A DNA stretch of 34,776 bases from Desulfobacterales bacterium (GCA_019038815.1 JAHOYS010000258.1:1-34776); one strand, 5' to 3'. Numbered from the stretch's first letter, positions 3,075-34,436 are shown. Program-made: numbers and translations. The notes: generated by a model not told the origin, from the letters alone.

Positions 3075-3130
3075 GCCTTGCTAAATCTGCCTTGCTAAAT
3101 CTGCCTTGCTAAATCTGCCTTGCTAAATCT
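3075..3130. repeat. Tandem repeat, 4 x 14 bp
   Basis: GCCTTGCTAAATCT occurs four times head to tail. The array covers the last codons and stop of the 73-aa gene. The 14-bp unit is not a multiple of three, so copy number changes the end of the protein. Confidence 0.95.
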
Positions 3131-3330
3131 TCTGAGCCCAATCTTTTCCTTACAAGGATATCAAGCTCTTCCTCCCAAATAGTTTTCATTTTAAAAGAAA
3201 TGTCGTAGTCCTCATAGTAAATTTCATCATCAGTAACCCAACCCTGAGAATTTGCGAATAAAAGTTCTTCCTCGGTAAGCTCCATATCTTCGTCATAAAA
3301 CCATTCTGTGAATTTTGCTTTTGTAATCAT
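3109..3330 (-). CDS. Acidic hypothetical protein, 73 aa, stand-alone cassette
   Basis: The product starts MITKAKFTEWFYDEDMELTE and is very acidic with many aromatic residues. Acidic small phage proteins often bind and inhibit host proteins or mimic DNA, but nothing here proves that. It has its own promoter (3363-3390), a ribosome site (GAAAGG) and its own terminator, so it looks like a moron-type cassette within the early operon. The last codons and TAG stop fall inside the 14-bp tandem repeat. With only one repeat copy the frame would run on past the hairpins, so the C-terminus is set by the array. Confidence 0.7.
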   Translation of the reverse strand: MITKAKFTEWFYDEDMELTEEELLFANSQGWVTDDEIYYEDYDISFKMKTIWEEELDILVRKRLGSEDLARQI

Positions 3331-3362
3331 TTTTTTAACCTTTCGAGTTAATTGCTATACTT

Positions 3363-3390
3363 ATAATACACTTTTATATACGCTTGTCAA
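3363..3390 (-). promoter_or_regulatory. Sigma-70-type promoter of the 73-aa gene
   Basis: TTGACA (3390-3385) and TATTAT (3368-3363) lie 16 bp apart on the minus strand. This is the best consensus match in the window and is placed about 30 bp before the ATG at 3330. Confidence 0.75.
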
Positions 3391-3429
3391 ACAAAAAATC
3401 CTAAAAAACTTATTTTTTTTCTAAAATTT

Positions 3430-3572
3430 TTAAACGACCCTTATAGTTTTCACGTAAGATTCAAAATCAGGGTGGTTTTCATTTGCCATGTTTCATTTGC
3501 CATGTTTCATTTGCCATGTTTCATTTGCCATGTTTCATTTAAAATATTATCGTCTAATCCAAAATCCGTCAT
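3430..3572 (-). pseudogene. Small gene interrupted by 14-bp repeats
   Basis: An ATG at 3572 has a strong AAGGAG site just after the primase stop. The frame starts MTDFGLDDNILNE but enters the repeat array and stops at 3507 after 21 residues. If the four repeat units are removed, the same frame continues as NHPDFESYVKTIRVV and stops at 3430, giving a 28-aa protein. Within the last unit an ATG at 3489 restarts that C-terminal frame. I infer that repeat expansion split a small gene. Confidence 0.5.
3480..3540. repeat. Tandem repeat, 4 x 14 bp plus partial
   Basis: CATTTGCCATGTTT is repeated four times (3480-3535) and followed by a partial copy. The array interrupts a small reading frame (3430-3572). 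It could also be read as iterons near the primase gene, but the gene-interruption reading explains the flanks better. Confidence 0.95.
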
Positions 3573-3583
3573 GTTATTCTCCT

Positions 3584-4633
3584 TCATCTATAAATTTTTG
3601 TTTTTTGTAATTCTTTAAACAGAGCATCTGCACCATATTTAATTAACATATCATTCCAGTCTTTACAACCTTTTGATGGGTGAATATATTCAATATTTCC
3701 CCTCGACATTCTAGATAACAAATATTCACATATTTTCTTAGCGGCTCTGATTCCTACCATATCATTATCGAGTGCTACAACAAACTTATAATTTTTAATT
3801 AGACTGTATTGTTTTAAACTAATCTCTGCACAGCCCAAAGCCACTCCATTGAGTCCTACTATGGATATTGCCTTTGCGTCGAACTCACCCTCTGTTATGT
3901 AGATTGTAGAACCATCTGTCGGCCACGTCCCAGCCATATATACCACGTCGCTCTTACCGGGAGAATTTAACCCTTTAGTTGGGGCCAAATATTTTGGTGG
4001 TCCTTCATATTTCTTCATCTTAACAATATCCATATATCTGCCGTTAAAATAAACCAATTTACCCTCTGGGTCATAATAAGGAATTATAATTCTATTCGCA
4101 TGTTTACCTCTAGAGCAAATATACATCTCATCAATAGGTAGGCAGCGACCATTAAGTAGGCAGCGACCATTAAGTATACCAACAGCCTTATCCCTCATGT
4201 GAGACTCTACAGTGTCCTCTCCTGAAGGTATATCGGTAAGCTTGTAGGTGTGCTCGGGTAAATTTATTTTAACCTGAGTGAAACCACAGACAATCTCATC
4301 ACTCATCTTTGCTTCTAACGCCCAACGATATGACATATAATCTGGATTGCTGTGATTGTCCACATACCTGCCTTCACCACAAACTTTTGCCATAGCTTCT
4401 TTTTTACTACAGCCATCTATTTCCATAATTAAATGATATAACCTTTTGCCACTACCCTTACGACTCACCTGACAAAAAAAAGTTCCTTTTTCCACATTAA
4501 TATATAGCTTCTTTTTCCTTGACTCACAATGAGGAGAAACTGAATAAAGCTCAGTGCCATTATCTTTTACTTCTCCAAAATTAGATTCCATATAGTTCAA
4601 AACTTTGTCTTTATTATATTCTTCATTCATCAT
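3584..4633 (-). CDS. DnaG-like TOPRIM primase, 349 aa
   Basis: This is probably the phage primase that makes RNA primers for replication with the neighbouring helicase. The TOPRIM domain is clear: ITEGEFDA (about 246-253) carries the catalytic glutamate, VVALDND (285-291) the DxD-type metal site, and KDWNDML (324-330) is typical of phage primases. The N-terminal zinc-ribbon position reads SPHC (33-36) and FFCQVS (52-57), so two of the usual four cysteines are replaced and zinc binding may be altered or lost. An in-frame duplication gives LNGRCLLNGRCL at about 154-165. It lies downstream of the helicase gene and upstream of the 14-bp repeats. Confidence 0.85.
   Translation of the reverse strand: MMNEEYNKDKVLNYMESNFGEVKDNGTELYSVSPHCESRKKKLYINVEKGTFFCQVSRKGSGKRLYHLIMEIDGCSKKEAMAKVCGEGRYVDNHSNPDYMSYRWALEAKMSDEIVCGFTQVKINLPEHTYKLTDIPSGEDTVESHMRDKAVGILNGRCLLNGRCLPIDEMYICSRGKHANRIIIPYYDPEGKLVYFNGRYMDIVKMKKYEGPPKYLAPTKGLNSPGKSDVVYMAGTWPTDGSTIYITEGEFDAKAISIVGLNGVALGCAEISLKQYSLIKNYKFVVALDNDMVGIRAAKKICEYLLSRMSRGNIEYIHPSKGCKDWNDMLIKYGADALFKELQKTKIYR
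4139..4174. repeat. In-frame tandem duplication, 2 x 18 bp, in the primase gene
   Basis: TAGGCAGCGACCATTAAG occurs twice in a row. It adds six residues (LNGRCL) between the zinc-ribbon-like region and the TOPRIM domain without breaking the frame. Confidence 0.95.
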
Positions 4634-4646
4634 ATCTTTTTCTTCT

Positions 4647-4694
4647 TTTCCTTACTAATTTCCTTACTAATTTCCTTACTAATTTGCTTACGAA
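4647..4694. repeat. Tandem repeat, 3 x 12 bp plus one diverged copy
   Basis: TTTCCTTACTAA is repeated three times and then once as TTTGCTTACGAA. On the minus strand each unit contains AAGGA, so the array multiplies a Shine-Dalgarno-like sequence just upstream of the primase start at 4633. Confidence 0.9.
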
Positions 4695-4832: not shown

Positions 4833-6518
4833 TCAACGACCTTTTTTTTCAAGCAACGTTTCTCTGTAATATACATCAGGTATTGATGCATTTTTAGATA
4901 GGTTCATTTGACATATTTTTATTTTTTCTTTCAACCTTATCAGGGTGTTAGTCATCAACGTTTTAGTCATGTTTTTAATCTTCTTTTCAGGTTTACATGT
5001 TTTAGGATTTTTATATTCAGTGACGTATTTTATATTTAATTTTTGTAAATCTGACTTAGAAACGCCGGTGTCTCTATTTACCTCAGATGCGGTTAGTATT
5101 GGAATATGTTTAAGCAACGCATTTTCTTGCAAGGAGTTTTCTTCGTCCTTTTCTTTATGCTTTTCTCCAGCAACGGTGCCCTCATATTCAAGAATTAGAT
5201 TAGACTTATTATTTTTAAGTTCAATAGATTTTGTTTTAATTATTATTTCTGGTAGTATTGGTGTAGATTTTGTTTTTATGTATTTTAAATTAAGTTTAGA
5301 TGGTGAACCTTTTGTTTCAAAGGTCCAGTGGATATCAGCATTTAAAGCACCACTGCCTCTGGGGCCAGAGCCAGCGTTGTTGGTGTGATGGATTATTATT
5401 ACTGTAGCACCATCCCACATACGTTTTAATTCATCTGCGACGTTAACAAATATACCCATGGCTGCTGAATCATTTTCACTTATCCCACCCCAACATCTAT
5501 GAAGCGTATCAATGATTACTAATTTTGGAGTAACTTTTGGGTGCTTCTTTTTCAATGCATCAACAAACATTCTGGCTAGGTTCGGAGTTTCAACAAAGTT
5601 TTCTGGTCTATCATATACAATAAAGTCATCATTCGCCAGAACATATTTGTTTGCCTTTTCCCAAGCCTGCCTTCTTTCTTTGATTTCGTGTTGACCTTCT
5701 GCTGCAATATAAAATACGGAGCCTATATGGGAATTATTAACTTTATATTTGCCCAGGAATGGTAGCCCTGAGCATACACTACAAGCCATGTGGCCAGCTA
5801 GATAGGATTTTAACGTACCGGACATACCATAAATCATTCCAAGAGTATCATTATGGAAGAAGTCCTTTATAATCCATTCTTTATCCTCCATATCATCTTG
5901 TTTTTTCTTGTCTAATATGTGGTTAGACATGTTATCTTTAGAAGATAAATTCATAATTGTAGACATATTACTTAGATGAGTCTCATAATCATCTACAGTT
6001 ATTTTTTCTCCTTCATCAGTTTTTACATTTATTAATCTATCAAATTCTCTACGCTCTTCACTGATACTCCTATCTCTTATAAACTCATCTATATGGTCAG
6101 TAATATAGAGTGTAGTGCCCTCTGTAAGTGGGTTAGAGAGAATTTTCTCTAGTTGGTGAGTTGCCTCTGATATTAGGGTATGAGCGTTATCTTCTAATTT
6201 AAAATGATTTCTTATCTCTTTAATAATAATCTTTTTTTCAGGAAGACCGGGATATTTATCATTAAAATCATGTGCAATTTTTACAAAGAGAGCTTGATTG
6301 CTATTTTTAAAAATGCCCGGTTTATCTAAATAAATTAGATTTGCGGTATTAGATGCGTCGGTAAGAATGACTGTACATACATCAAACGGGTCATACTGAA
6401 TTCTTCTTTCTTTAATTTCTTCTTCGTCTAAATCAAAAGTGGGTTCGTGATTTTCTACTAATTTAATATTTGCCTTAGACGCTTTGTACATCTCCTCAAA
6501 TTCATTTTTACTTTCCAT
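4833..6518 (-). CDS. RepA/AAA_25-type replicative helicase ATPase, 561 aa
   Basis: The ATPase core resembles RecA-fold helicases of the RepA/AAA_25 family, which form hexamers and unwind DNA at the fork. From the ATG at 6518: Walker A GMSGTLKS (about 231-238), Walker B KLVIIDTLHR (about 332-341), and sensor VIIIHHTN followed by GPRGSGAL (about 373-393). The N-terminal 200 residues have no recognised motif and may bind a partner or primase. The ATG at 6518 is chosen because GGAGG precedes it; it overlaps the end of the small upstream gene. With the primase it forms the replication module; no DNA polymerase is visible, so host polymerase is probably used. Confidence 0.85.
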   Translation of the reverse strand: MESKNEFEEMYKASKANIKLVENHEPTFDLDEEEIKERRIQYDPFDVCTVILTDASNTANLIYLDKPGIFKNSNQALFVKIAHDFNDKYPGLPEKKIIIKEIRNHFKLEDNAHTLISEATHQLEKILSNPLTEGTTLYITDHIDEFIRDRSISEERREFDRLINVKTDEGEKITVDDYETHLSNMSTIMNLSSKDNMSNHILDKKKQDDMEDKEWIIKDFFHNDTLGMIYGMSGTLKSYLAGHMACSVCSGLPFLGKYKVNNSHIGSVFYIAAEGQHEIKERRQAWEKANKYVLANDDFIVYDRPENFVETPNLARMFVDALKKKHPKVTPKLVIIDTLHRCWGGISENDSAAMGIFVNVADELKRMWDGATVIIIHHTNNAGSGPRGSGALNADIHWTFETKGSPSKLNLKYIKTKSTPILPEIIIKTKSIELKNNKSNLILEYEGTVAGEKHKEKDEENSLQENALLKHIPILTASEVNRDTGVSKSDLQKLNIKYVTEYKNPKTCKPEKKIKNMTKTLMTNTLIRLKEKIKICQMNLSKNASIPDVYYRETLLEKKGR

Positions 6519-6721
6519 TATTTTCCTCCGGCCACTCATTCTCGTAATGATAACTATCTGAATCTATCAGTATAGAGTCAATTGGTTCTATTGGTTCTAT
6601 TGGTTCTATAGTTTTTATGGGGGGGAAGTTGAGGGGTTTCGTCTGGTAGAGTAAGTTGTTGTAGATATTTGATGTAAGCGTCACCGACAGCATCTATTTG
6701 TTTTTTTGTAAATTTTTTCAT
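6508..6721 (-). CDS. Small gene split by a C7 tract (needs +1 shift)
   Basis: The ATG at 6721 follows GCAGGAAG. The frame reads MKKFTKKQIDAVGDAYIKYL and reaches a run of seven C (6625-6619). In the present frame it then gives a low-complexity NYRTNRTNRTN tail and stops at 6578. With one base fewer, or a +1 shift at CCC-C, it continues as PIKTIEPIEPIEP and then an acidic, aromatic tail to the stop at 6508, which overlaps the helicase start. The longer 70-aa product looks more natural. Phase variation, programmed +1 shifting and a sequencing error are all possible. Confidence 0.5.
6581..6607. repeat. Tandem repeat, 3 x 9 bp
   Basis: ATTGGTTCT is repeated three times. On the minus strand this encodes IEP repeats in the +1 frame, or RTN repeats in the unshifted frame, of the split gene. 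Confidence 0.9.
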
Positions 6722-7321: not shown

Positions 7322-7322
7322 C

Positions 7323-7356: not shown

Positions 7357-7412
7357 AACAACAGTAAGTTGATGAATTACGAAGGAATGCCCGGCTTGTT
7401 GCCGGGTTTTTT
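7357..7412 (+). ncRNA. Candidate small RNA, about 56 nt
   Basis: A good promoter is followed directly by a complete intrinsic terminator (CCCGGC 7390-7395, loop TTGTT, GCCGGG 7401-7406, then six T). No credible gene fits between them, so the expected product is a short RNA with a roughly 33-nt unpaired 5' part (AAGTTGATGAATTACGAAGG lies in it). A tiny ORF beginning inside it would read through the terminator. Expression and targets are unknown. Confidence 0.5.
7390..7412 (+). terminator. Terminator of the putative small RNA
   Basis: A 6-bp GC-rich stem (7390-7395 with 7401-7406), a 5-base loop and six T. The first 94-bp repeat copy begins exactly at the loop (7396), so the second repeat copy carries only the right arm. 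Confidence 0.8.
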
Positions 7413-7489
7413 CTTGATAAAAATTTTTATTTTTTCTGGATTTTTTTATTCTAGCTGCTATACTATACATGTAGAGAAAAATACTTTGA
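7396..7489. repeat. 94-bp direct repeat, copy 1
   Basis: This is identical over 94 bp to 7960-8053. It contains the right arm and T run of the small-RNA terminator, a very T-rich stretch and an extended -10 promoter element. Copy 1 precedes the 7512-7910 small genes and copy 2 precedes the 8088-8766 genes. Confidence 0.95.
7456..7464 (+). promoter_or_regulatory. Extended -10 promoter, copy 1
   Basis: TGCTATACT matches TGn-TATACT, the extended -10 form that does not need a strong -35. It is preceded by a long T-rich tract that could act as an UP-like element. Confidence 0.5.
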
Positions 7490-7511: not shown

Positions 7512-7744
7512 ATGCCAGAGCTTGAATACACAGACCCGAAAATTTACATGGTGGAAATCATGGTGGAAATCATGGTGGAAATCGCAATGCAAGCCATGCT
7601 GAAAAACTAGACCTTTGGCTACAAGGGCGCATCGACCAATTCAACGAGAAGCAGGATAGCGAACGGGCAGCAGAGCTTGCTTGTCTAGCTGGGGAATCCG
7701 ACCAAGACACAGAGCAGGTTATAGACGCCGCTAAGAGGAAGTAG
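7512..7744 (+). pseudogene. Small gene broken by a frame change, about 77 aa if joined
   Basis: An ATG at 7512 opens MPELEYTDPKIYMVEI and runs through a 12-bp repeat (MVEI three times) to a TAG at 7608. In the -1 frame from the same place, a coding-like stretch continues as LDLWLQGRIDQFNEKQD and on to a stop at 7742, but has no start codon of its own. A one-base change or a -1 shift at GAAAAAC (7601-7607) would join them. The heptamer is not a canonical slippery site. No ribosome site is clear. Confidence 0.4.
7548..7583. repeat. Tandem repeat, 3 x 12 bp
   Basis: ATGGTGGAAATC is repeated three times, adding MVEI units in frame to the small ORF starting at 7512. Confidence 0.95.
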
Positions 7745-7959: not shown

Positions 7960-8053
7960 TTGTTGCCGGGTTTTTTCTTGATAAAAATTTTTATTTTTTC
8001 TGGATTTTTTTATTCTAGCTGCTATACTATACATGTAGAGAAAAATACTTTGA
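7960..8053. repeat. 94-bp direct repeat, copy 2
   Basis: This is identical to 7396-7489. Here the left arm of the terminator is missing, so the copy should not terminate transcription but keeps the promoter-like element. Confidence 0.95.
8020..8028 (+). promoter_or_regulatory. Extended -10 promoter, copy 2
   Basis: The same TGCTATACT element in the second 94-bp copy, about 60 bp before the ATG at 8088. The preserved identity suggests recent duplication of a promoter cassette. Confidence 0.5.
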
Positions 8054-8087: not shown

Positions 8088-8288
8088 ATGTGTCAACCGC
8101 ACAAAAATTTCCCATGGGATACAGAAGAAAAAATTGATTCTGATGTACAAGCGGTTTTTTCTGGATTTGTGCGGTCTTACAAGTACGGCCCGACATTTTT
8201 GCTTGACATGGATTCGCCACTAGGAAAAAGATTTTTGCAAGCACATCCTCCTCTACCGTCGGCAAAATGGAAAGGACCAAATGGCTAA
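8088..8288 (+). CDS. Hypothetical protein, 66 aa
   Basis: The ATG at 8088 follows AGGAAG closely and lies about 60 bp after the copy 2 promoter. The product (MCQPHKNFPWDTEEKIDSDV at the start, proline-rich at the end) is not recognised. Its last codons overlap the ATG of the next gene by 8 bp, which argues for a real coupled pair. Confidence 0.5.
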   Translation: MCQPHKNFPWDTEEKIDSDVQAVFSGFVRSYKYGPTFLLDMDSPLGKRFLQAHPPLPSAKWKGPNG

Positions 8289-8562
8289 AACAAAAAAACC
8301 TAAAACAAAAAAACCTAAAACAAAAAAACCTAAAACAAAAAAACCCGTGCTTAATCGGATTAGCAGGTTGGGTATGATTCCAAAGGAGTTTAAAAATCAC
8401 TACCGCAGGGCGTGGAATCATAGAGGTGGTAAGGACGCCATATATGCTTTCTGCCTTGAGTGTATGAAATTTGATAAAATTAAAATCAAACTTTGTAAAA
8501 ATACAGCCTGTCCGCTGTATGAGTACAAAATGGACGCCTTACCAAAAATTTGTCAGAAATAA
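8281..8562 (+). CDS. Cys-rich phage protein with Lys-rich repeat tail, 93 aa
   Basis: The N-terminus is four KTKKP repeats encoded by a 4 x 15-bp array, a histone-like basic tail. The C-terminal part holds FCLECM, then LCKNTACPLYEYK, the CxxC...C...CPLY pattern of a widespread small phage protein of unknown function thought to bind zinc. The basic tail may bind DNA or RNA and its length would change with repeat number without breaking the frame. It overlaps the 66-aa gene and is followed after 33 bases by the 56-aa gene. Confidence 0.7.
   Translation: MAKTKKPKTKKPKTKKPKTKKPVLNRISRLGMIPKEFKNHYRRAWNHRGGKDAIYAFCLECMKFDKIKIKLCKNTACPLYEYKMDALPKICQK
8286..8345. repeat. Tandem repeat, 4 x 15 bp
   Basis: TAAAACAAAAAAACC is repeated four times without change, encoding the KTKKP repeats of the 93-aa protein. 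The unit is a multiple of three. Confidence 0.95.
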
Positions 8563-8595: not shown

Positions 8596-8766
8596 ATGAA
8601 TTATAAACTAGCATTTAATGAACAAGAATTAAATATCATAATCAAGGCCCTAGGCGAGATGCCGTACAAATTTTCTGCCCAAGTGCTGGATAAAATTCAA
8701 AAAGTTATTAATGAATCTTTAGCTGAATCTTTAGCTGAAGCTACAACTGAATCCAGCGAGGGCTAA
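8596..8766 (+). CDS. Small hypothetical phage protein, 56 aa
   Basis: The ATG at 8596 has AAAGGAG at good spacing. The product begins MNYKLAFNEQELNIIIKALG and continues EMPYKFSAQVLDKIQ, a helical pattern I know from many small uncharacterised phage proteins. A 12-bp duplication (8713-8736) repeats ESLA near the end. It is the last gene of the plus-strand block and its 3' end overlaps the minus-strand membrane gene by 26 bp, tail to tail. Confidence 0.7.
   Translation: MNYKLAFNEQELNIIIKALGEMPYKFSAQVLDKIQKVINESLAESLAEATTESSEG
8713..8736. repeat. Tandem repeat, 2 x 12 bp
   Basis: GAATCTTTAGCT occurs twice in a row, giving an in-frame ESLA duplication near the C-terminus of the 56-aa protein. 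Confidence 0.85.
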
Positions 8767-9090: not shown

Positions 9091-9231
9091 TTAAAATTTT
9101 CCATGCGGGCATTTGAATCTCGGCGACTTAAGCTTTCTCCTACATCCACCGCACCCTGCGGTTATCTTGCAGTTTTCTTCACACTCTTTACAAGCTGCTA
9201 ATCGAGTTTTCAACATTTCTTTTCTGTTCAT
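9091..9231 (-). CDS. Small Cys-rich zinc-binding-like protein, 46 aa
   Basis: The ATG at 9231 overlaps the stop of the fibre gene (TAATG). The 46 residues hold six cysteines in CKEC, ENCKI, GCGGC and KCPHGKF, a compact arrangement likely to bind one or two metal ions. Such tiny Cys-rich proteins often follow tail fibre genes in phages; some may assist fibre assembly, but the role is unproven. Confidence 0.65.
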   Translation of the reverse strand: MNRKEMLKTRLAACKECEENCKITAGCGGCRRKLKSPRFKCPHGKF

Positions 9232-10985
9232 TAGTCTTTGATGATATAGGCGACACAATACCACGCCGGCCTGTTATCGGTGTCAGCCTTGTCAGGATGC
9301 TCGGATACCGGGTCTTGAACCGGCGTGGTGTTAAGCCCATCAGATGTTTCCGCACCATGTCGTACTTCCAGATATCCACCTGACCCAGTTTTCTGAATCC
9401 CAGTCGTAGCCCATGAGGCCACTGTTGCACCTGAGCCAGACTGAACCGTCTCTGGTCCAGCAGCCATGTGGAGGTGGTCGATGTGGTCGGAGTGATTATT
9501 TTCAGTTAGACCGTGATAGGTTTTTCCACCAGTCTCTCCGGGTACTGCATAATCTCCAGTTTGTCCAAAGGCGCCAGCAACGCCGCCAGACACTACGCCA
9601 GTGCCGTCGTATGAACCTACTACGAATTGACCCCTCATATCTGGTCTATCCCCTCCACCATCACAAAGGCTCCACCCAGAAGGTATGGCATTTATGGCTC
9701 CGCTCCACATCACAATAACACCGCTAGGAATTCCTCCCGCTTCTGCCCCACCAGCAGTAGGCACCACCATCGTTCCGCTGGCGGTCCCTGATACCACTCC
9801 GCTAAAAACCTGCGAAGTTGCGTTAGCAATTTGTTCTATATTTCTACTCATCTGCATGAGTGGGTTGCTTGATTTATCATTTCCTGTTTGGATGACGGTT
9901 GTGGAATCTGTCCAACGGATATTTCTCACGTAACCATCATGTACAAAAGGAACGACCATTGGATATTCATACGTTGTAGGGGACGAATTTTGAGAGGCAT
10001 TGAAAGCTCTCAAGGCCATCTCGCTTGCAACGGCATTTAGCGCTGCTTGGTTTTGAACGGAGCTACCGTCGTGTTCGGCAAGGTAGTTTCCCATGTGCAT
10101 GGGTCGGCTTGATGCTCTCCCAACTCCGTTGACTTCAACTTCTTTTTCATAAAACGGTTCGGCTGCTCTGTCTGCTGAATCCACGCTTTCTTGATAAATG
10201 ATTGGAAAACTACAAGTATAGTTTTTTGGCATGGCTGCATTATTTCTAAGGAATGCATCTGTTGCAAATATTTTTGTAACTGCATCATCATATTTATCAA
10301 ACAAATCTGAGTTGGTTGAACTGATTGAATCGGCATCCCAAAGCGAAAGTTCTCCCGTTGAGTGGTTGAACCCAACCACCATAAATGTCTGTGCTGCAAC
10401 GACTTGTATACATTGCGCTATCGTTAGAGAATTAAAGCTCAAGTTTCTCGGTTTGTAACTTGTGGGCAGCGTACCCGAATTTACAAAAGACATTCCTTCT
10501 GGCATCAAGTTATTTATATACGAAATTACTTCTGCCCAAGTAAATTCAGAGCCACCATTAAGGGTCACCGTAATAAATTCTAAACCGTCTTCTGTATTTT
10601 TTTGTACGTTAAATTGCGTGTTTAAAATAACGTTTAAATCATTTCTAAGGTCATAGCACACAACTTCATAAAAATCATTTCCAGAAGATGCTCCGCTTTC
10701 TGAGTTCTCGCCAAAGTCGATAGAAGCTGGTGCGGCCCCACCAATTTGAACATCAAAGTCGTGAGTATGAATTCCTCTGAAATTGGAGTCGTTTAAAATT
10801 TCTGATGTGAGTGTTAACTTTTTGTTTGTGTTATCACTTTTGTTTATTTGAGCTTGAGGCTCATAGGCTAGAAACCGACCTATGCCCGGCTCAGTCGCCG
10901 AGGCATAGCTCTCGAAACTGTTTGGCACATAACATCCTTTAATAGGTGCTGAGATGCTGTAGTCTTTTAGGGTAATTTCATTCAT
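9231..10985 (-). CDS. Tail hub/fibre protein with collar domain, 584 aa
   Basis: The C-terminal third has a phage tail collar domain: PSGVIVMWSGAINAIPSGW (about 420-438), then CDGGGDRPDMRGQFVVG. HSDHIDHLHM (about 495-504) resembles the His-rich metal site in the shaft of long tail fibres. The protein ends NRPAWYCVAYIIKD, as fibre tips do. Residues 1 to about 390 lack known fibre motifs and may attach to the baseplate or form the hub. It is the last large structural gene and probably recognises the receptor. Start by ATGA overlap with the previous gene. Confidence 0.8.
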   Translation of the reverse strand: MNEITLKDYSISAPIKGCYVPNSFESYASATEPGIGRFLAYEPQAQINKSDNTNKKLTLTSEILNDSNFRGIHTHDFDVQIGGAAPASIDFGENSESGASSGNDFYEVVCYDLRNDLNVILNTQFNVQKNTEDGLEFITVTLNGGSEFTWAEVISYINNLMPEGMSFVNSGTLPTSYKPRNLSFNSLTIAQCIQVVAAQTFMVVGFNHSTGELSLWDADSISSTNSDLFDKYDDAVTKIFATDAFLRNNAAMPKNYTCSFPIIYQESVDSADRAAEPFYEKEVEVNGVGRASSRPMHMGNYLAEHDGSSVQNQAALNAVASEMALRAFNASQNSSPTTYEYPMVVPFVHDGYVRNIRWTDSTTVIQTGNDKSSNPLMQMSRNIEQIANATSQVFSGVVSGTASGTMVVPTAGGAEAGGIPSGVIVMWSGAINAIPSGWSLCDGGGDRPDMRGQFVVGSYDGTGVVSGGVAGAFGQTGDYAVPGETGGKTYHGLTENNHSDHIDHLHMAAGPETVQSGSGATVASWATTGIQKTGSGGYLEVRHGAETSDGLNTTPVQDPVSEHPDKADTDNRPAWYCVAYIIKD

Positions 10986-14387: not shown

Positions 14388-14395
14388 GTCGCTCC

Positions 14396-16325: not shown

Positions 16326-16344
16326 AATACTCCTTTTCTTTTAG

Positions 16345-16815: not shown

Positions 16816-16818
16816 AAT

Positions 16819-17091: not shown

Positions 17092-17093
17092 AT

Positions 17094-17495: not shown

Positions 17496-17497
17496 AA

Positions 17498-20998: not shown

Positions 20999-21000
20999 GT

Positions 21001-22449: not shown

Positions 22450-22452
22450 TCA

Positions 22453-24112: not shown

Positions 24113-24120
24113 ATCACTCC

Positions 24121-27800: not shown

Positions 27801-28091
27801 ACCAGACGTATCATCTAAAAATTGAGAATCAGCATCTATAACTGCTATGCCCGTTGATTCGTTAATTACGCCCGTAGTTACCTCATTAACATCTATAATA
27901 TCGCCCGCATTAGTAGGTGACAAAGTAGTCCCAGTTCGGGTCCAAGGTCCAAATGCACCAGTACCATCAGAGGCGATATTCAGCCACTTGCTAGTGGCTG
28001 AATTATATCTTAATATATCATTATCTGCTATGCTGGATATGTTGACATCATCAACCAACTCCGATAATCTTTGTAAAATTCTAAATGCCAT
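24879..28091 (-). CDS. Large tail fibre/adhesin-like protein, 1070 aa
   Basis: The N-terminal 60 residues (LVDDVNISSIADNDILRYNS) match the attachment segment of environmental phage fibres. The rest is beta-rich and repetitive, with TTGDLTIGHTF-type strands and a duplicated block (SSIDWTDRQLLATDGTDVIL near 97; SINWDARQLLALGGTDVIL near 527). A probable lectin-like or fold-capping domain ends the protein. It probably binds the host surface. It lies upstream of TerS, far from the other tail genes, and next to the glycan block. The middle is much more GC-rich than the rest of the window, suggesting domain acquisition. Start by TAATG overlap. Confidence 0.75.
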   Translation of the reverse strand: MAFRILQRLSELVDDVNISSIADNDILRYNSATSKWLNIASDGTGAFGPWTRTGTTLSPTNAGDIIDVNEVTTGVINESTGIAVIDADSQFLDDTSGKSSIDWTDRQLLATDGTDVILDYSTAGTAAFGDTDLETTGDIDAGFMQVNQLAHSAGIQINGFDDRSTWWGKLSIDSLGYFNIDAATGWRFLEAGAPVAFIDEKTTNGFRMYDNIPLTFGATPATRYGFVRNNTSGDLDLKYNSGAWATFLSIDSAGDFDFQAGDITTTGDLTIGHTFNLGDATAATDSTINFLGLTNSGSIVWDEGSDEIEANCGALVAQKDLSINPGGIEGSGLLSQQAKVSADEIFTIHTMRLARGGGSGGVGLGFRWLMQLEESGGGVSQAANLEVSWLDPTVDDETSKWAFHTMLDGAVVEPMKFEGADATFAGDITTTGNGAFGTMNLSGDLYLDANDLTGVSDIIDDSAKNAFDVTNRELKDTGGTTVIDLDIEQLMTSGAAALDWSVGTMHSAGAEVLNWNTLLLKDSSAGNSINWDARQLLALGGTDVILDYSTAGTADFDDTDIETTGDFLTTGVSTVGGATDVVQSIVKGNASQTANLQTWTDSSDATLAQIQGNGRFYTSSGIRSEALEWGGSLIGFDSGGLDIIDDHTAHEADFDLTGGSFEALMTDLAGTFDSDDVGRWIIVRTGAKRGAMAAIAAVIDTDNVVLHTMGWDDDLADFGYYVITHPQIVMGDGYHSEFQCNSEGHFDVHSNDWVGSQYSNYMFEVELEAGADGVDGGFFEAKANGYNAVQAIVADYQSGDLQPGDTGGGMGIRVDVSEATSADATTEIDAYLAVTVNGSDANTTALRILPGFTNAVIVQGATAVDPSYGYDFVAVGGVTTDRVTGAPQAGTAFLDTSTTDMTIFGANGDKILIGNAIDFEVLEYTELGGGGKNIVATFEYSTGNDTWATLPILTDGTTGFQQSGQISWSAPGAWAASNASDGDAITSAKYIRITRTYAPTIVAPPVEAHFKIYLDRVLGMSIRGDATISPTTLADAAAPNFSIYYSSTQSKLVFKDGTVGLTDGTANPLY
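26431..26471. repeat. 41-bp repeat inside the fibre gene, copy 1
   Basis: This is identical to 27715-27755. It codes for part of the duplicated VILDYSTAGTA block. Exact DNA identity in an otherwise diverged duplication suggests recent conversion or recombination. Confidence 0.9.
27715..27755. repeat. 41-bp repeat inside the fibre gene, copy 2
   Basis: Exact match to 26431-26471, 1284 bp away and in the same orientation and frame, so recombination between them would delete or add 428 codons without a frameshift. Confidence 0.9.
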
Positions 28092-28813
28092 TAGCTAATC
28101 CTTAATTTATTCATGAAAACTTCCCTACTGTTTACATTCTCTTCCAACCTTGTCATAACCTGCTCGATTGGAGTATATGGCAGTATCTCATTATCGCTGC
28201 AACAAATTATTTCTTTTTTTAATTTTACAGCTTGTTCTTTACACCACAGCAGCCCCTCTGTGGTACGGTCAACGAAGGTGTCTAAATGAAGCTTAGTTGG
28301 ACCAAAAAAGTTCTCTCCCTGCTTAGCACAATCAACTCCGGCAAAAATTATAGGATTAAATCCAAGATTACACGCAATTTGAAACAGTAGGGGTGTTGCC
28401 GTTCTAGACCCGTGTAATCTTAGTAAATTTTGATGAAAATCCCACTCTCCAACTATTTGGCGATATTCAAGCCTTGGTAACGCCTTACAACAGTTTTTAC
28501 GGCATAAAATAAGAGAATCCCTTGCTAATTCGTCTATTTCTTCCTGTTCTTCGATGTTTTTAGTATAAACCGACGCATCTTGAAAGAAAAGAATGTTCGG
28601 AGTCAGCATTTTATAGGCTCTATTTACTCCAATAGTAAAATAAAAATCTTCTAGCTCCTCTGCATATTCTTCTAGACAATTCAAAGACGGTCCACAACCC
28701 AATAAAAAGCAGGGGATATTTTTGAACATCCCCGGCCATTCATGCATAATTTTTTTTCTAACCTCAAACCGAAGTCTATATCGAAGAGGTGCTCTCTGAA
28801 CTCTTCCTGCCAT
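28091..28813 (-). CDS. Maf/DUF115-like protein, putative glycosyltransferase, 240 aa
   Basis: IPCFLLGCGPSLN (about 33-45), followed by FTIGVNRAYKMLTPNILFFQ, matches the GPSL-containing core of DUF115/Maf proteins, some of which add nonulosonic acids to flagellin, and related 6-hydroxymethylpterin-type folds. LHGSRTATPLLFQIACNLGF then GVDCA is the second conserved part. The likely role is sugar transfer in the modification block. It sits between the lipoproteins and the fibre gene, so the fibre could be a substrate; this is inference. Confidence 0.65.
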   Translation of the reverse strand: MAGRVQRAPLRYRLRFEVRKKIMHEWPGMFKNIPCFLLGCGPSLNCLEEYAEELEDFYFTIGVNRAYKMLTPNILFFQDASVYTKNIEEQEEIDELARDSLILCRKNCCKALPRLEYRQIVGEWDFHQNLLRLHGSRTATPLLFQIACNLGFNPIIFAGVDCAKQGENFFGPTKLHLDTFVDRTTEGLLWCKEQAVKLKKEIICCSDNEILPYTPIEQVMTRLEENVNSREVFMNKLRIS

Positions 28814-28814
28814 A

Positions 28815-29456
28815 CTAGTCCTTTAGTGACTTGACAACTTTTTTGGTGCTTTTATCCTGATTTTCAGCCAATTTGTTGTTGAAAGCTTCTCTATCGTCTG
28901 GAAGCAACGTATCTTTGGCTTTCTGAACACTCTCTACGATGTCCTTCGTTATTTTACCCTTTGTAACGGCCTGATAAGCTCCGCCCAAAATAGGAAGTGC
29001 CGAGAATAAAGGTTTTGCAAAAACAGATACACCGGGAATAAAAGTAGCTCCGAATAGTAATGCAATTCCACCTAAAGAAAAGAAAATTATATTACGACCT
29101 GCAATCCATAGACGCTCGATGAGAGATAAATCTCCGCCTCCGGCGGAGATTTTACCAGCCTTAGTATCTAACAATATCGGCTTCCTGTTAATGCTCCCCT
29201 CTATAGCACTCACGCCAAACGGAGACATTATGCGTGCCCCAAAATACTTATCTGTGGCTGTGTAACTCTCACCCTCGTAGGAATAGTTCTTACCCTCTTC
29301 TCCTGTTTCAACAACAATTTTTATTTCGTATTCATCAGGTAATTCTTTGACGGCCTTCACAATATCTTGGACCAGTGGCGGTGAAGCCTTCTCTACTTTA
29401 GTCGCTGGCTCACACCCAATACAAAACAACATGGCGAGACATAATAATTTATTCAT
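28815..29456 (-). CDS. Lipoprotein with membrane segments, u-spanin-like candidate, 213 aa
   Basis: The N-terminus (MNKLLCLAMLFCIGCEPATK) is a lipoprotein signal with lipobox CIGC at residues 12-15. Residues about 124-170 hold one or two hydrophobic segments (NIIFFSLGGIALLFGATF), followed by a charged tail. A lipoprotein with a second membrane segment is the layout of unimolecular spanins, which fuse inner and outer membrane at lysis, although those usually end soon after the segment. The ATG at 29456 is chosen by AGAGG and the signal sequence. It overlaps the smaller lipoprotein gene. Confidence 0.55.
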   Translation of the reverse strand: MNKLLCLAMLFCIGCEPATKVEKASPPLVQDIVKAVKELPDEYEIKIVVETGEEGKNYSYEGESYTATDKYFGARIMSPFGVSAIEGSINRKPILLDTKAGKISAGGGDLSLIERLWIAGRNIIFFSLGGIALLFGATFIPGVSVFAKPLFSALPILGGAYQAVTKGKITKDIVESVQKAKDTLLPDDREAFNNKLAENQDKSTKKVVKSLKD

Positions 29457-29610
29457 TTGTATACCTCTTGATGAGTATGGTTGTTTTGGTAGAGCCTTTA
29501 GTAATATCACTCGATGTGATACTAGGCCCGGATTTGCGTGCAGTCACGTCTGTCTTTGCAAAACTGCATCCCGATATTAGTAGTAGCATGATAATTAGAA
29601 ATTTTTGCAT
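29449..29610 (-). CDS. Small lipoprotein, 53 aa, o-spanin-like candidate
   Basis: The ATG at 29610 follows GGGGAG. The product starts MQKFLIIMLLLISGCSFAKT: a short signal with lipobox ISGC, leaving a mature lipoprotein of about 39 residues rich in Ser, Thr and Lys. It overlaps the next lipoprotein gene by 8 bp. Small lipoproteins in phages can be outer-membrane spanins or exclusion factors. The possible inner partner (8741-9073) is not adjacent, so a spanin pair is speculative. Confidence 0.65.
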   Translation of the reverse strand: MQKFLIIMLLLISGCSFAKTDVTARKSGPSITSSDITKGSTKTTILIKRYTNE

Positions 29611-29645
29611 AAGTTCTCCCCTTTTAATGTAGCACTTACATCGTT

Positions 29646-30326
29646 TTAACTGCGAAATTCTGTATAATCCTTAGTCTTTAACCACTTCCTTCTCAGTCGT
29701 CTGAATTTTCTTCGGTCCATACTCGTTTTAAAAGAATCCTCATTGGCTTCCATAAGGTCATCAGAATTATGAAGCCGCCACTCATGTTTAATAATGCATT
29801 TATCTATAAATTTTTGTTTTCCCTCAGTTACGATTGTTAAAAAGTTGTCACAACAGTGCGTGGTAAAGTCTGGATGATATAAATGAGTCATACCGTCATA
29901 CATCCGGCGTCCCATTATGGTCAGCGTGCAGATGTTTCTTTGTCTGTTATCGAAGTACCATAGCAACCCATCTAAATCGGGAAAATACTTCTCCATATCA
30001 TTCCTAATAATATCATCATACCCTTTTATCTGAGGTATTTGGTCGTCAGATACTAACACCACTATGTCCCAAGGTGTGTCTGGCACATCTGAATTGCAAG
30101 CTTCAATCTTTGTTTTACTATTCCCAAACTTTATAGAACAATTTTTAAGAGATTTAACAAACTCAATGATATTGTCATTGTTCATAGAGTCGTCCCCCCG
30201 GTCGGCAGATACTACAAATTCATAATCATCTTTATTTGTCATAAACTCTAAGTACTTGGTAATAGTAGACTTAAACAGTTCTGGACGACTTCTAGTTGGG
30301 TACTTTAGAAGCAATTTTAATCCCAT
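29646..30326 (-). CDS. Putative GT-A glycosyltransferase, 226 aa
   Basis: The product starts MGLKLLLKYPTRSRPELFKS, a GT-A-like first strand. IVVLVSDDQIPQIKGYDD (about 88-105) sits at the DXD position, and FTTHCCDNFLTIV further on matches the conserved C-terminal Asp region of such enzymes. The substrate is unknown. AAAAGGAG precedes the ATG. A short 72-bp gap before it contains an 8-codon ORF with a good site that I do not count as a gene. Confidence 0.6.
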   Translation of the reverse strand: MGLKLLLKYPTRSRPELFKSTITKYLEFMTNKDDYEFVVSADRGDDSMNNDNIIEFVKSLKNCSIKFGNSKTKIEACNSDVPDTPWDIVVLVSDDQIPQIKGYDDIIRNDMEKYFPDLDGLLWYFDNRQRNICTLTIMGRRMYDGMTHLYHPDFTTHCCDNFLTIVTEGKQKFIDKCIIKHEWRLHNSDDLMEANEDSFKTSMDRRKFRRLRRKWLKTKDYTEFRS

Positions 30327-30398
30327 TTTTTCTCCTTTTTTAATTTATCTAATTTGGTCTTTAAACGGCATAACAACTCCTTAATAAATAAGTTTATA

Positions 30399-31115
30399 TT
30401 ATACCTTATTCCAACCTAAAATACCAGTTAAAACATCATCCGGGTGAAACACTGGTTTTTTATATCTTTCTAAATATTTAAGTTGTTCATCAACACTGTG
30501 CCCAGACTTAATGACGCTCTCTTTGTATTCGGGTTTGTTCGTTCTATCTATTGGCATACTCGGATGATACGATTCATAATAACCGTCCTTGAAGAAGGTG
30601 AAACCCGTCACAAATAATTCTTTAATTTTAAACTGCATCAAATAGTCAATCGCCAACGTGCCCGTACAAGGTTCACCCTGTGTCGCATTCCTGATTTGTT
30701 TATGTATATCTAGTGGGATATAGACAAGTGTGAAATCATTATATTTATTATTAATTTCTTCCAGAGCAGCATATTGTTTTTGTGTAAATCTTGTATATGC
30801 AGGATGATGAACAACTATATATTTCAACCCACTAGCCTTAGCCGGTATATAATAATTTATATAAACATCTTCCATACGCTCTTTGTAATCCTCCTTACGA
30901 GAATTGTGGCACATATAATCCTCGGCCAGACCAGTAATTAATATGTCTGTACGAAGTCCTATGTCTTTATGAAGCTCTTCCGGTGCCGGAAGAGCTGAAT
31001 TCATACGTACAACAATATCATATGAATCTATGAGTTGTCCAGAATCCTTAAGAGACGGGGATGGACCAACAAGACATATTTTCTTTCCATATAAATCTGC
31101 CACAATGCTATTCAT
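30399..31115 (-). CDS. Sialyltransferase-like protein (GT29-type motifs), 238 aa
   Basis: The stretch CLVGPSPSLKDSGQLIDSYD (14-33) followed by IVVRMNSALP and DIGLRTDILI matches the L-motif of GT29 sialyltransferases (VGNGPSL...ID.YD.V.R.N..P...DVG.RT). CTGTLAIDYLMQF (150-162), then VTGFTFF, matches the S-motif (STG..AI..AL), and a late His (206) is present. These enzymes transfer sialic or related nonulosonic acids from CMP donors. The ATG at 31115 is chosen by ATGA overlap with the 29-aa ORF and AAGGGG. Confidence 0.65.
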   Translation of the reverse strand: MNSIVADLYGKKICLVGPSPSLKDSGQLIDSYDIVVRMNSALPAPEELHKDIGLRTDILITGLAEDYMCHNSRKEDYKERMEDVYINYYIPAKASGLKYIVVHHPAYTRFTQKQYAALEEINNKYNDFTLVYIPLDIHKQIRNATQGEPCTGTLAIDYLMQFKIKELFVTGFTFFKDGYYESYHPSMPIDRTNKPEYKESVIKSGHSVDEQLKYLERYKKPVFHPDDVLTGILGWNKV

Positions 31116-31201
31116 TTGACCCCTTTGCGTCTTTTTATATGACAATCCTTACTAAAACTACTCTTCTCTAACAATAGTTCACAACCTATACATTCTTTCA
31201 T
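31112..31201 (-). CDS. Small Cys-containing protein, 29 aa
   Basis: The ATG at 31201 has AAGGAG at good spacing, and the stop overlaps the next start (ATGA). The product is MKECIGCELLLEKSSFSK plus DCHIKRRKGVK: a CxxC, a later Cys-His pair and a basic end, as in one half of a zinc finger. The strong ribosome site and coupling make it a likely real gene; its role may be to couple translation or to bind metal. Confidence 0.55.
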   Translation of the reverse strand: MKECIGCELLLEKSSFSKDCHIKRRKGVK

Positions 31202-31240
31202 ATCATCTCCTTAAACCAAAATTATAACATAATTTTAATC

Positions 31241-31786
31241 CTATTTCCATAAGCCAATGTATAAAGTATGGTCACCTTGGAGACCCTCGCTATACATATA
31301 AATATCAGTTATATCTGAGTACTCCTCAAGCTTAACTGTCCACCAGCCCTGACTATTGGCTGAAGGATGAAGCGTCTTACCGTCTTCTGTCCTGTAGCAT
31401 GTCTCCTTCTTGAAGCATACTGTCACGAAGTACCTCTCGCTTACTCGTTTCATCTCCCTTAAGGAAGCGTCAACTTTCTCCTCATCCAAGTGCTCTAAAA
31501 CATCGAAAGACGTACACATATCAAACTCTTTATCTTTGAATGGAAGGTCATGGGCTGAAGCTATTACATCAGCACTTGGACATGCTATGTCTACACCGAC
31601 TTTATCTTTGTCAGATGCCATTGGATAACCCTTCACAAACTCATTGTGACCGCAGCCAATGTCTATAATACTCTTCGGAAAGAGCTTTAAAAGCTTTTGA
31701 AGATGGTCCCTACTATGGTTATCTGAGCCATATTTGCCGTATTTTGCTTGGTTATTATAAATATATTCATAGTCTTCTTTACTCAT
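31241..31786 (-). CDS. Class I SAM-dependent methyltransferase, 181 aa
   Basis: The Methyltransf_11-type motifs are present: IIDIGCGHNEFVKGYPMA (motif I, about 36-53), VGVDIACPSADVIAS (post I), LPFKDKEFDMCTSFDVLEHL (motif II/III, about 82-101). The enzyme transfers a methyl group from SAM to a small molecule or sugar. In this block it may methylate a glycan. AGAGGA lies upstream of the ATG. Confidence 0.8.
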   Translation of the reverse strand: MSKEDYEYIYNNQAKYGKYGSDNHSRDHLQKLLKLFPKSIIDIGCGHNEFVKGYPMASDKDKVGVDIACPSADVIASAHDLPFKDKEFDMCTSFDVLEHLDEEKVDASLREMKRVSERYFVTVCFKKETCYRTEDGKTLHPSANSQGWWTVKLEEYSDITDIYMYSEGLQGDHTLYIGLWK

Positions 31787-31807
31787 AATCTATATTCCTC
31801 TTAATTT

Positions 31808-31951
31808 TTATAAGTGGTCGTTAAAATAATCAACGCCTGTGATTGCGTTTGACGCCAAAAAGCAACTCTGTTTGCCCAAAATTATATGATTACATGTTTT
31901 ACTAATCGGTATTAGCCCACCGAGATATTCGATATCAAATTTTTTACTCAT
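31808..31951 (-). CDS. Small hypothetical protein, 47 aa
   Basis: The ATG at 31951 overlaps the stop of the 112-aa gene and has GGAGGAG at good spacing. The product begins MSKKFDIEYLGGLIPISK, contains TCNHIILGKQSCFLAS and ends in GVDYFNDHL. It carries two Cys about 12 residues apart. Its size and position two genes after a radical SAM enzyme make it a candidate peptide substrate, but nothing more supports this. Confidence 0.6.
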   Translation of the reverse strand: MSKKFDIEYLGGLIPISKTCNHIILGKQSCFLASNAITGVDYFNDHL

Positions 31952-32282
31952 AATCATTCTCCTCCATGTTTTTAAATTCTAAATAAGTTGTTGATAATTC
32001 CAACGCCCGTTCATCGTGAAAAATGTTCTCAAACATAGCAATGACTTCTAATTTTCGGCACACCTCGCCATTATATTCTGAGACATCTCCAGTCATGACT
32101 GTATTTATTTCAATCTCACTACAGGTAAAGTGCTCATAACCCTCAACGGGACAAATACAGTGCAGAAAATCACACTCTATTTTTTCGTTTCGATTATCAA
32201 TTTGGTCTACACCGTCTTCATAATCGAAAGTGAGAATCAGATGTTCTTCTAAACTGTCCTTCAATCGCCCCACTTCTCCCAT
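31944..32282 (-). CDS. Cys-containing hypothetical protein next to the radical SAM gene, 112 aa
   Basis: The likely ATG at 32282 lies 22 bp inside the radical SAM gene with AGGAAG upstream; longer in-frame starts and a TTG a few codons later are alternatives. The protein is acidic, with ECDFLHCICPVEGYEHFTCS near residue 35 (four Cys and two His). It may bind metal or be a partner or substrate of the radical SAM enzyme. Family not recognised. Confidence 0.5.
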   Translation of the reverse strand: MGEVGRLKDSLEEHLILTFDYEDGVDQIDNRNEKIECDFLHCICPVEGYEHFTCSEIEINTVMTGDVSEYNGEVCRKLEVIAMFENIFHDERALELSTTYLEFKNMEENDYE

Positions 32283-32899
32283 CGCTTCTTCCTCGCCCAT
32301 GGACAAATGACACACAATTGTCCACATTTTTGTATCTCTTTTTTCCAATTATCCGTTACTTCTATACACGTATCTGTGTCTAAGCCCGGACCTGCACAAC
32401 AAGAATATAATCGCCCCTCAAATAAAACGGGACCAATATCTAATCTTTCACAAGCTTGGTCTCTACCTGTCATGTCTGGAAACTGGACATGAACAACGTC
32501 GCCAATTGTAAGTTTTTCTTCAGGCACAATTGTCTGAATATATTGGCATAATTTTTCGTTGTCTTTACAGCCTTCATAAGTTTTTGAGGAATAATGACTT
32601 ACATTTACTTGGTCAAACAACTCAAATGCTTTTTCATTTCCTTTTATCTTGAAACCATCTGTCTGTAGAATTAGTGTCTTAGGTCTATATAGTTTTATAA
32701 ATGTTTTTATATATTTATAAAATTGTTTATGAATTGTAGGTTCACCACCAGTTATAACTACTTCTTCCATATCCTGAAAGTACTTAGAATATTTTTCTAA
32801 ATAATCAAAATCATTATCATGTTTAAATTCGTTATAAGCCGTTCCTAGACTGCACCAATGGCAAGTTCGGTTGCACCTGCTCGTTATACTAAACTGCAT
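32261..32899 (-). CDS. Radical SAM protein with SPASM/Twitch-like C-terminus, 212 aa
   Basis: The radical SAM cluster motif CNRTCHWC (C9, C13, C16; CxxxCxxC) and the SAM-binding VVITGGEP (47-54) are intact. The C-terminal part has seven more Cys (150, 167, 168, 178, 192, 196, 199), including GRLYSCCAGPGLD and CGQLCVICPWA, as in SPASM or Twitch domains that hold auxiliary iron-sulfur clusters. Such enzymes modify peptides, sugars or small molecules by radical chemistry. It lacks other queuosine genes nearby, so QueE is unlikely. AAGGAGGA sits about 35 bases before the ATG, too far for normal initiation. Confidence 0.8.
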   Translation of the reverse strand: MQFSITSRCNRTCHWCSLGTAYNEFKHDNDFDYLEKYSKYFQDMEEVVITGGEPTIHKQFYKYIKTFIKLYRPKTLILQTDGFKIKGNEKAFELFDQVNVSHYSSKTYEGCKDNEKLCQYIQTIVPEEKLTIGDVVHVQFPDMTGRDQACERLDIGPVLFEGRLYSCCAGPGLDTDTCIEVTDNWKKEIQKCGQLCVICPWARKKRWEKWGD

Positions 32900-32920
32900 T
32901 TTATCTGTTCTTAAAAGAAT

Positions 32921-32947
32921 TTTTATCCTCCTTTTATCCTCCTTTTA
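32921..32947. repeat. Tandem repeat, 2 x 11 bp plus partial
   Basis: TTTTATCCTCC is repeated, with a further TTTTA. On the minus strand it doubles an AAAGGAGG Shine-Dalgarno sequence between the glycosyltransferase and radical SAM genes, though too far from the ATG at 32899 for normal use. Confidence 0.85.
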
Positions 32948-33631
32948 CACTCCTGATGCTACTAAGACATAACCCTTAGTATCGGGTGGCCCATATGTTA
33001 ATAATTTATTTTTACTTGTATCTGTGAATTTCATTTCGAGCTTAGAAGCAATCACGGATGCTATTGACTGGTCATGACGGTGCCCTAAGCATCTCTCATC
33101 AGCCGAGCACTGTCGTCTATCGTTCTTCCACGGGCCTGAGAATACTTCTTTATTTTTACTATATTCATACCAAGTATAAAAGAAGTCCTGACAGATGGAA
33201 GTAGTAAAGTCAAAGCCCATGACGTTAGCCATAGCATGAGGCAAATCCATTGCTTCATCTCTCGTCAAATTCATTATTTCCAATGACTTATCTGTCATCC
33301 AGTTCCCAGTGTTCCAACCATTCTGTTGAAGATAATACCCCTGTTCATCGATTATATCCCAGATAGCATCTAGCCGCTTCGTTACAACACAGCCTGCATC
33401 TATCCAAAGAACTTGCTCATACCCTTGGACTCGTGCGATATTAATAACAAATGGTTTAAATCCGTAATTAATTTCTTGATGTGTTGGGCACCCTTCTGGG
33501 TACTCTGTATAAAACTTCATCTCGCCTATGTGATAATCAAGAACACTTCTTCGCAATTTTCCAAGGGCATTTCGGTATCGTCTCGAACCTTCATCATCTA
33601 TTCCTAAACTTATTACAATACGTTTTTTCAT
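32945..33631 (-). CDS. Putative glycosyltransferase (GT-A-like), 228 aa
   Basis: YEQVLWIDAGCVVTKRLDAI (about 72-91) has the DxG/DxD-type donor site of nucleotide-sugar transferases, and CLGHRHDQSIASVIASKL (about 178-195) matches their conserved HDQ..AS acceptor-side motif. The enzyme probably adds a sugar within the block. A good AAGGAGAAGG ribosome site precedes the ATG. Confidence 0.65.
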   Translation of the reverse strand: MKKRIVISLGIDDEGSRRYRNALGKLRRSVLDYHIGEMKFYTEYPEGCPTHQEINYGFKPFVINIARVQGYEQVLWIDAGCVVTKRLDAIWDIIDEQGYYLQQNGWNTGNWMTDKSLEIMNLTRDEAMDLPHAMANVMGFDFTTSICQDFFYTWYEYSKNKEVFSGPWKNDRRQCSADERCLGHRHDQSIASVIASKLEMKFTDTSKNKLLTYGPPDTKGYVLVASGV

Positions 33632-33720
33632 TTTCCTTCTCCTTAATCAATTGTTCAAATTGTTGACATCCTCATCTTTTATAAGCTTCGCCTGTTTTAA
33701 ATTTTCTGCATTTTGATAAT

Positions 33721-34320
33721 TTAGTTCCTCGTTAAAAGCAGGTTTTCGGCGTTCTCATATACGACCTTATACTTCAATGGTGCTAGACGCTCAATAATTT
33801 TTTGTTGATTCCCGTCGTGCTCGATTATGACACAGCTACAGTGTCTCAACTCCTCCCATGGGAACCTCACAAAGAGTTGAAAGCTGCTTCCCTCCACGTC
33901 AATATCAATCATGTTAAAGTCCTTACCAAACTGTTGCAGCAAGGCTGCAACAGTTATGCTTGGTATTGATATAATCTGCCAATCAACCCCTCCGGCCTTA
34001 GTACTCCACTTATCTACATGGTCTGTATTTGAAGAAGATATGGCATCGCCCTGCGAGTCATAAAATTCTATCATACCCCCATCAACGGTGACGGCTGCAC
34101 AGACTAACTCGACATCATGGCTCCTGACGTTTCGCATGAGGTTAACGAAGTTGACAGGCGAAGCCTCAACATCGACTCCTGACCAACCGCTCTCAACCAG
34201 ACAAAATGAATTAGAAAAAAGTTTTCCATCGTAGGCTCCAATGTCCAAAAATTTCCCCTTGACATCTTTGAAGTGTTCTAGTATATATTTTTGTTCGTCA
34301 TTTTGCGAATAATTTTTCAT
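33721..34320 (-). CDS. FkbM-family methyltransferase, 199 aa
   Basis: GKFLDIGAYDGKLFSNSFCL (about 22-41) and GWSGVDVEASPVNFVNLMRN (about 45-64) are SAM-binding motifs of FkbM enzymes, and FNMIDIDVEGSSFQLFVRFP (about 133-152) is the family's (K/D)xDVEGxE-like signature. FkbM proteins O-methylate sugars or polyketides. It follows the tandem repeats after the 118-aa gene, with an AAGG site eight bases before the ATG. Confidence 0.8.
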   Translation of the reverse strand: MKNYSQNDEQKYILEHFKDVKGKFLDIGAYDGKLFSNSFCLVESGWSGVDVEASPVNFVNLMRNVRSHDVELVCAAVTVDGGMIEFYDSQGDAISSSNTDHVDKWSTKAGGVDWQIISIPSITVAALLQQFGKDFNMIDIDVEGSSFQLFVRFPWEELRHCSCVIIEHDGNQQKIIERLAPLKYKVVYENAENLLLTRN

Positions 34321-34331
34321 TGTCTGGGCCT

Positions 34332-34373
34332 TATTTATTTTGAGGTTCCCTGTATTTATTTTGAGGTTCCCTT
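34332..34373. repeat. Tandem repeat, 2 x 21 bp
   Basis: A 21-bp unit starting TATTTATTTTGAGG occurs at 34332-34352 and 34353-34373 with one difference at the end. It separates the FkbM gene from the 118-aa gene. Confidence 0.9.
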
Positions 34374-34375
34374 TT

Positions 34376-34436
34376 TAACGCTAGTGTAACGCTAGTGTAA
34401 CGCTAGTTTTTAACGCTAGTGTTTTTAACGCTAGTG
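34376..34436. repeat. Five copies of an 11-bp motif
   Basis: TAACGCTAGTG occurs three times head to tail (the third lacks the last base) and twice more after short T spacers. The array contains the end and TAG stop of the 118-aa gene and encodes its LALKTLALKTSVTLALH tail. Confidence 0.9.

Follow-up and report, generated by a model that had tools for sequence, protein, structure and literature searches.

Young tandem micro-duplications with unrelated units in a small tailed phage genome from a Desulfobacula bin

A complete circular tailed phage genome recovered from a Desulfobacula bin carries twelve short tandem arrays, each built on a unit of its own, in excess over shuffled sequence, over the rest of the bin and over randomly drawn viral contigs. 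The arrays are young and independent of one another, short microhomologies mark their junctions, and inside ORFs their units keep the reading frame. We think it probable that they are real and recent micro-duplications, made by microhomology-seeded slippage during replication of the phage and filtered by what its genes tolerate.

The phage genome and its twelve arrays

The window, by which we mean the whole stretch of 34,776 nucleotides analysed, is one contig of a MAG with 415 contigs. Its first 55 bases (1-55) recur identically at its end (34722-34776) as a direct terminal overlap, so that the contig represents a circular assembly of a complete 34,721-base genome, probably made with an assembler k of 55, as the length of the identical ends suggests. 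The DnaG of the MAG, 94% identical to that of a Desulfobacula MAG, places it in Desulfobacula, and binning points to this genus as the phage host. The window encodes a Toprim-domain DNA primase (3584-4633, minus strand), an AAA_25, RepA-like replicative helicase (4833-6539, minus strand) and a packaging, head and tail module (9231-24540, minus strand; large terminase, portal, major capsid protein, tape measure and tail-fibre proteins) that is almost without arrays, and is identified on these grounds as a tailed phage. No known RNA families were found in the window. A cluster of surface- or sugar-related genes spans 28091-34320 and 117-1308 (MptE-like, a GT29-like sialyltransferase fold, FkbM and other methyltransferases, radical SAM, glycosyltransferase family 2), and a weak match to Sigma-70 region 4 at 1301-1756, under the curated cut-off, may represent a phage sigma-like factor.

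The original prediction listed eleven tandem repeats; all eleven are present, starting at most 3 bases from the positions it gave, and a twelfth, at 13671, was absent from that list. The arrays listed here are on the minus strand unless marked as plus. At gene ends lie a perfect 14-bp array of 4.0 copies (3075-3130), at the 3' end of a 73-aa ORF (3109-3330) and with an in-frame stop within the unit; a perfect 14-bp array of 4.6 copies (3477-3540) in a short ORF and spacer downstream of the primase, with 8 nt of junction homology, TTTCATTT; and, at the 3' end of a 118-aa ORF and with a stop inside the array, an 11-bp array of 2.9 copies running into a 15-bp array of 2.1 copies with the shared core ACTAGCGTTA (34376-34437). 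Ahead of genes, the 12-bp unit TTAGTAAGGAAA (4647-4691; 3.3 perfect or 3.8 near-perfect copies) repeats a ribosome-binding-site-like stretch immediately upstream of the primase start, the 11-bp unit GGAGGATAAAA (32921-32947, 2.5 copies) repeats a Shine-Dalgarno-like sequence before a radical SAM ORF, and a 21-bp unit (34332-34372, 1.95 copies) lies immediately upstream of the FkbM-type methyltransferase ORF. Within ORFs, an 18-bp unit (4138-4176, 2.2 copies, junction homology GTA) gives LNGRCL twice in the Toprim primase; a 9-bp unit (6581-6609, 3.2 copies) encodes the EPI repeats of a 61-aa ORF that lies upstream of the helicase; a 12-bp unit (7547-7583, plus strand, 3.1 copies) lies inside a small plus-strand ORF; a 15-bp unit (8285-8345, plus strand, 4.1 copies) gives a 93-aa protein its N-terminal KTKKP repeats; a 12-bp unit (8712-8739, plus strand, 2.3 copies, junction homology TGAA) encodes the C-terminal ESLA repeats of a small protein (8597-8764); and a 15-bp unit (13671-13706, 2.4 copies) falls where the tape measure protein is rich in Ala and Gly, in its N-terminal part, and is possibly ordinary low complexity. 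At 13426-13535 the tape-measure gene also contains direct repeats (33 nt, 79%) that overlap with inverted ones (42-nt arms, 88%).

The twelve units are mutually unrelated, and the rest of the genome, searched with 0-1 mismatches allowed, has no further copy of any of them. Each being confined to its own locus, the prediction that a process and not a repeat family had produced them is borne out. An alternative is that several arrays are functional sites under selection: iterons of an origin at 3075 and 3477, operators at 34376, repeated ribosome-binding sites at 4647 and 32921, and basic or acidic protein tails at 8285 and 8712. Consistent with this, the Shine-Dalgarno-like sequences at 4647 and 32921 are repeated just ahead of start codons, where by their sequence they could affect translation, the core at 34376 is a near-palindrome, AACGCTAGTGTT, and the arrays at 3075 and 3477 both have a 14-bp period and adjoin the primase. 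However, iterons and operators should recur, whereas no unit is common to two arrays or present as a single site elsewhere, and the binding unit that replication iterons share among origin arrays is not seen here. Functional sites would moreover require one explanation for each of the 12 arrays, and the primase array sits in a conserved gene whose homologues do without it. Taken jointly, we regard these functions as an unlikely origin of the arrays.

Excess, age and distribution

Under a counting rule of perfect tandem arrays of at least 28 nt, the window holds 11, whereas none of 30 dinucleotide shuffles contains any; the proposed excess is confirmed. The total becomes 12 (0.35/kb) if one also counts an array that misses its second full copy by a single base. 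By the same length threshold the MAG, sampled as 20 stretches of 20 kb, has 2 arrays in 400 kb (0.005/kb) and none of at least 50 nt. Among viruses, 48 randomly drawn contigs gave 2 arrays in 417 kb (0.005/kb), both within the same gene on a single contig, the count was 41 in 1.12 Mb for 80 contigs that encode a related primase, many of them from one 39-nt family, and six isolate phages gave 7 in 262 kb (0.027/kb). One contig of the bin matched the window over 20 bases, but in unrelated sequence, and this match was put down to chance.

These rates are to be read with the knowledge that the window was picked for its repeats and that the comparison sets are modest, about 2.2 Mb in all; repeat-rich phages exist, and the window might simply belong to the upper tail of an ordinary distribution. 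One of the six isolates, Bacteroides phage BC679P5, does carry 4 arrays in 37 kb. Nevertheless, 12 unrelated units are more than the rate in isolates would give (for 10 loci, P about 6e-8), and the best other viral locus sampled has 4 distinct units, mostly of one 39-nt family and in one stretch, so that we consider an ordinary upper tail quite improbable. The arrays of BC679P5 (OP172651) are perfect, have units of 15-18 bp and lie at 16489-16580 and 21200-21395.

The quality of the arrays gives their age. With Tandem Repeats Finder, the ratio of near-perfect to imperfect arrays is 11:7 in the window, 6:47 in the random viral contigs, 12:39 in the MAG and 15:44 in the isolates. The rate of imperfect arrays in the window equals the background (P 0.1-0.4) and the excess is confined to the near-perfect class, which indicates that the arrays arose very recently or disappear before decay sets in. 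Counting near-perfect against imperfect arrays may serve as a simple measure for finding phage genomes with rapid repeat turnover.

The primase array amounts to one extra LNGRCL (six residues) relative to nine homologues, each of which is single-copy, and the duplication is accordingly the derived state. This orthologous comparison was possible for the primase alone. Single-sequence terminase and capsid searches of viral contigs found nothing, in Desulfobacula relatives and 389 genomes of the order the only terminase match was the window itself, and the early region had no DNA relative in the phage collection. A search with portal and a two-sequence terminase profile retrieved three sister contigs (terminase 57-64% identical), which cover structural genes only. 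Two of the three bear short arrays of their own (L104:3205, L104:5206 and L105:1177), at places that are array-free in the window. Contig L105 also opens (1-250) in a Ser-rich gene made of repeated AGTAGTTCA units.

The excess had been described as genome-wide, which does not hold: 11 of the 12 arrays fall within 22% of the circle (P about 6e-7), at 2.9-8.8 and 32.9-34.7 kb, around the replication and small accessory genes. As to the particular replication mode that had also been suggested, this grouping near the primase and helicase genes is the observation that may bear on it. Noncoding DNA makes up 22% of this array-rich region and 3% of the remainder, and more spacer DNA is a simpler cause of the clustering near replication genes, if a partial one. 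Coding arrays number five in the array-rich region versus one in the other 27 kb. A shift in GC skew was tried as a marker of the origin and proved uninformative, the skew tracking gene strand. The array-rich region also contains a second, dispersed kind of recent duplication, an exact 94-nt repeat (7396-7489 and 7960-8053) whose copies lie 564 bases apart, ahead of two plus-strand genes, and look promoter-like. In the same region, a small plus-strand ORF (7513-7742) ends in a TAG stop directly after GAAAAAC while its -1 frame stays open and encodes a helical-looking peptide; its end may reflect a -1 frameshift or an indel.

Effects on genes, junctions and a probable origin in phage replication

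The arrays at 3075, 3477 and 34376 had been said to change reading frames. Their units are indeed not multiples of 3, but the end of the protein is constant at all copy numbers tried from two upwards, because each array carries a stop within it. The first duplication shortens or alters the protein end, and later copies give an identical product. This bears on a second reading, that the arrays form a diversification or phase-variation system in which genes are switched by copy number. With units of 14, 14 and 11 bp, these gene-end arrays would be expected to shift frames, which speaks for it. The stops inside the arrays, however, yield the same protein at every copy number tried from 2 up, and copy number does not switch the reading frame in the manner of a contingency locus. 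Furthermore, no young array lies in tail-fibre or other receptor-type genes, and neither a dedicated enzyme nor a template region was seen. With copy-number change beyond two leaving the proteins unaltered, and with no preference for host-range or surface genes among the targets, the suggested diversification mechanism is very unlikely.

The junctions bear on mechanism. The arrays end in partial copies of their units, which implies that short direct repeats, one unit length apart, were already present in the ancestral sequence. In the seven arrays unbiased by the length cut, the extra bases at the junctions sum to 18 versus 5.1 expected (P = 2e-4). Such junctions fit strand slippage between microhomologies, and not RecA-type recombination or blunt joining. 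Slippage, one of the processes originally put forward, is the best-fitting one, given the junction microhomology and the derived, in-frame duplication in the primase. Hairpins within the units were considered as a trigger and rejected, as the units show no hairpin tendency. Unit length is divisible by 3 in 6 of 6 arrays inside ORFs and in 2 of 6 outside (Fisher P = 0.06, weak when taken alone), as expected if frame-breaking copies are removed.

An assembly artefact is a very improbable explanation. In its favour, if k is 55, as the length of the terminal overlap indicates, the three longest arrays (56, 64 and 61 bp) exceed k by less than one unit, which is also the size at which a longer array would be left after collapse by the assembler. 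Most arrays, however, are shorter than 55 bases and sit with their flanks inside single k-mers necessarily present in the reads, and they are not something that an assembler would make up; the other contigs of the bin have no such arrays, and neither the frame rule nor the microhomology would be expected of an artefact. An artefact is thus unlikely for arrays below the presumed k of 55, and if that k is right the copy numbers of the 56-, 64- and 61-bp arrays are uncertain and should be read as minima.

We return to slippage as the probable source of the arrays. A replicating strand would slip between short direct repeats of 0-8 bases lying 9-21 bases apart, and some of the arrays so formed would then gain further copies by the same route, arrays probably being gained and lost quickly. 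The binned host chromosome is without such an excess, which argues for a cause specific to the phage, and phage replication, or poor repair of its products, is the likely source. This replication would employ the phage's own Toprim primase and RepA-like helicase and, presumably, a host polymerase; no DNA polymerase was recognised among the window proteins scanned. Tolerance would then decide which arrays survive, namely those at gene ends, in spacers, in small accessory genes and at in-frame positions within ORFs.

Comparison with known systems

Several known systems share part of the pattern. Bacterial contingency loci, like the window, can have units not divisible by 3 at gene ends, but there copy number switches genes, whereas in the window the product stays unswitched. 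The rudivirus SIRV1, an archaeal virus, shows 12-bp indels of fixed length; they resemble the window arrays as short, in-frame length changes at many unrelated viral sites, and differ from them in that fixed length and in their archaeal setting. We take them as a lead only. In the virulent Campylobacter phages CP220 and CPt10, slipped-strand mispairing has been proposed for variable repeat regions, and variation within a plaque-purified stock has been shown (PMC2853527). These phages resemble the window in having many tandem arrays with slippage as the proposed cause. Most of their regions, however, share a related unit of ~75 bp spread over the genome, whereas each window array has its own short unit and no single unit occupies several loci. 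We found no description, in the open-licence literature, of unique-unit arrays at such density in a small tailed phage.

The closest known case, and one that the window closely matches, is the tandem repeats of the giant extrachromosomal elements called Borgs. Borg repeats are perfect, have unique units, occur in genic and intergenic DNA, are divisible by 3 in ORFs and are flanked by partial repeats; they are nearly absent from the host chromosome, and their copy number has been shown to vary in populations (PMC9879509). The window likewise has perfect, recent and unrelated units, each unique to its array, in genic and intergenic positions with partial copies at the array ends; its ORF units are divisible by three and the others mostly not, in what are small numbers; and its arrays are nearly absent from a host chromosome to which the window is linked by binning. 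Borg arrays of at least 50 nt and at least 3 units reach 0.03-0.09 per kb, with a mean of 0.056 (PMC9879509), and by the same rule the window has 3 arrays, or 0.086/kb. The coding-strand A content of Borg units is 48% versus 38% (PMC9879509); that of the window units is 40%, versus 34% in the genome and 36% in the same region, a small difference in the Borg direction, measured on 179 bases.

The elements themselves are quite different. Borgs are linear, archaeal and 0.6-1.1 Mb long, whereas the window is a 34.7-kb circular tailed phage from a bacterial (Desulfobacula) bin; a Borg is recognised by its huge linear genome, its terminal inverted repeats and its association with Methanoperedens, and the window is not such an element. 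Borgs also carry PolB, for which the scanned window proteins offered no recognisable counterpart, and the window differs further in having its arrays clustered in one part of the genome. A more far-reaching idea, that the phage's own replication apparatus makes micro-duplications far faster than the host, that Borg-like behaviour evolved independently and that the trait follows replication genes, is tentative and on balance doubtful. Borg repeats are themselves unexplained, and Borgs have no cultivated hosts. If their pattern is shared by a 35-kb phage of a bacterial genus, its cause would not have to be peculiar to Borgs or to archaea, and a small number of phage replication genes, placed in a laboratory bacterium, could, if this is true, serve to study it.
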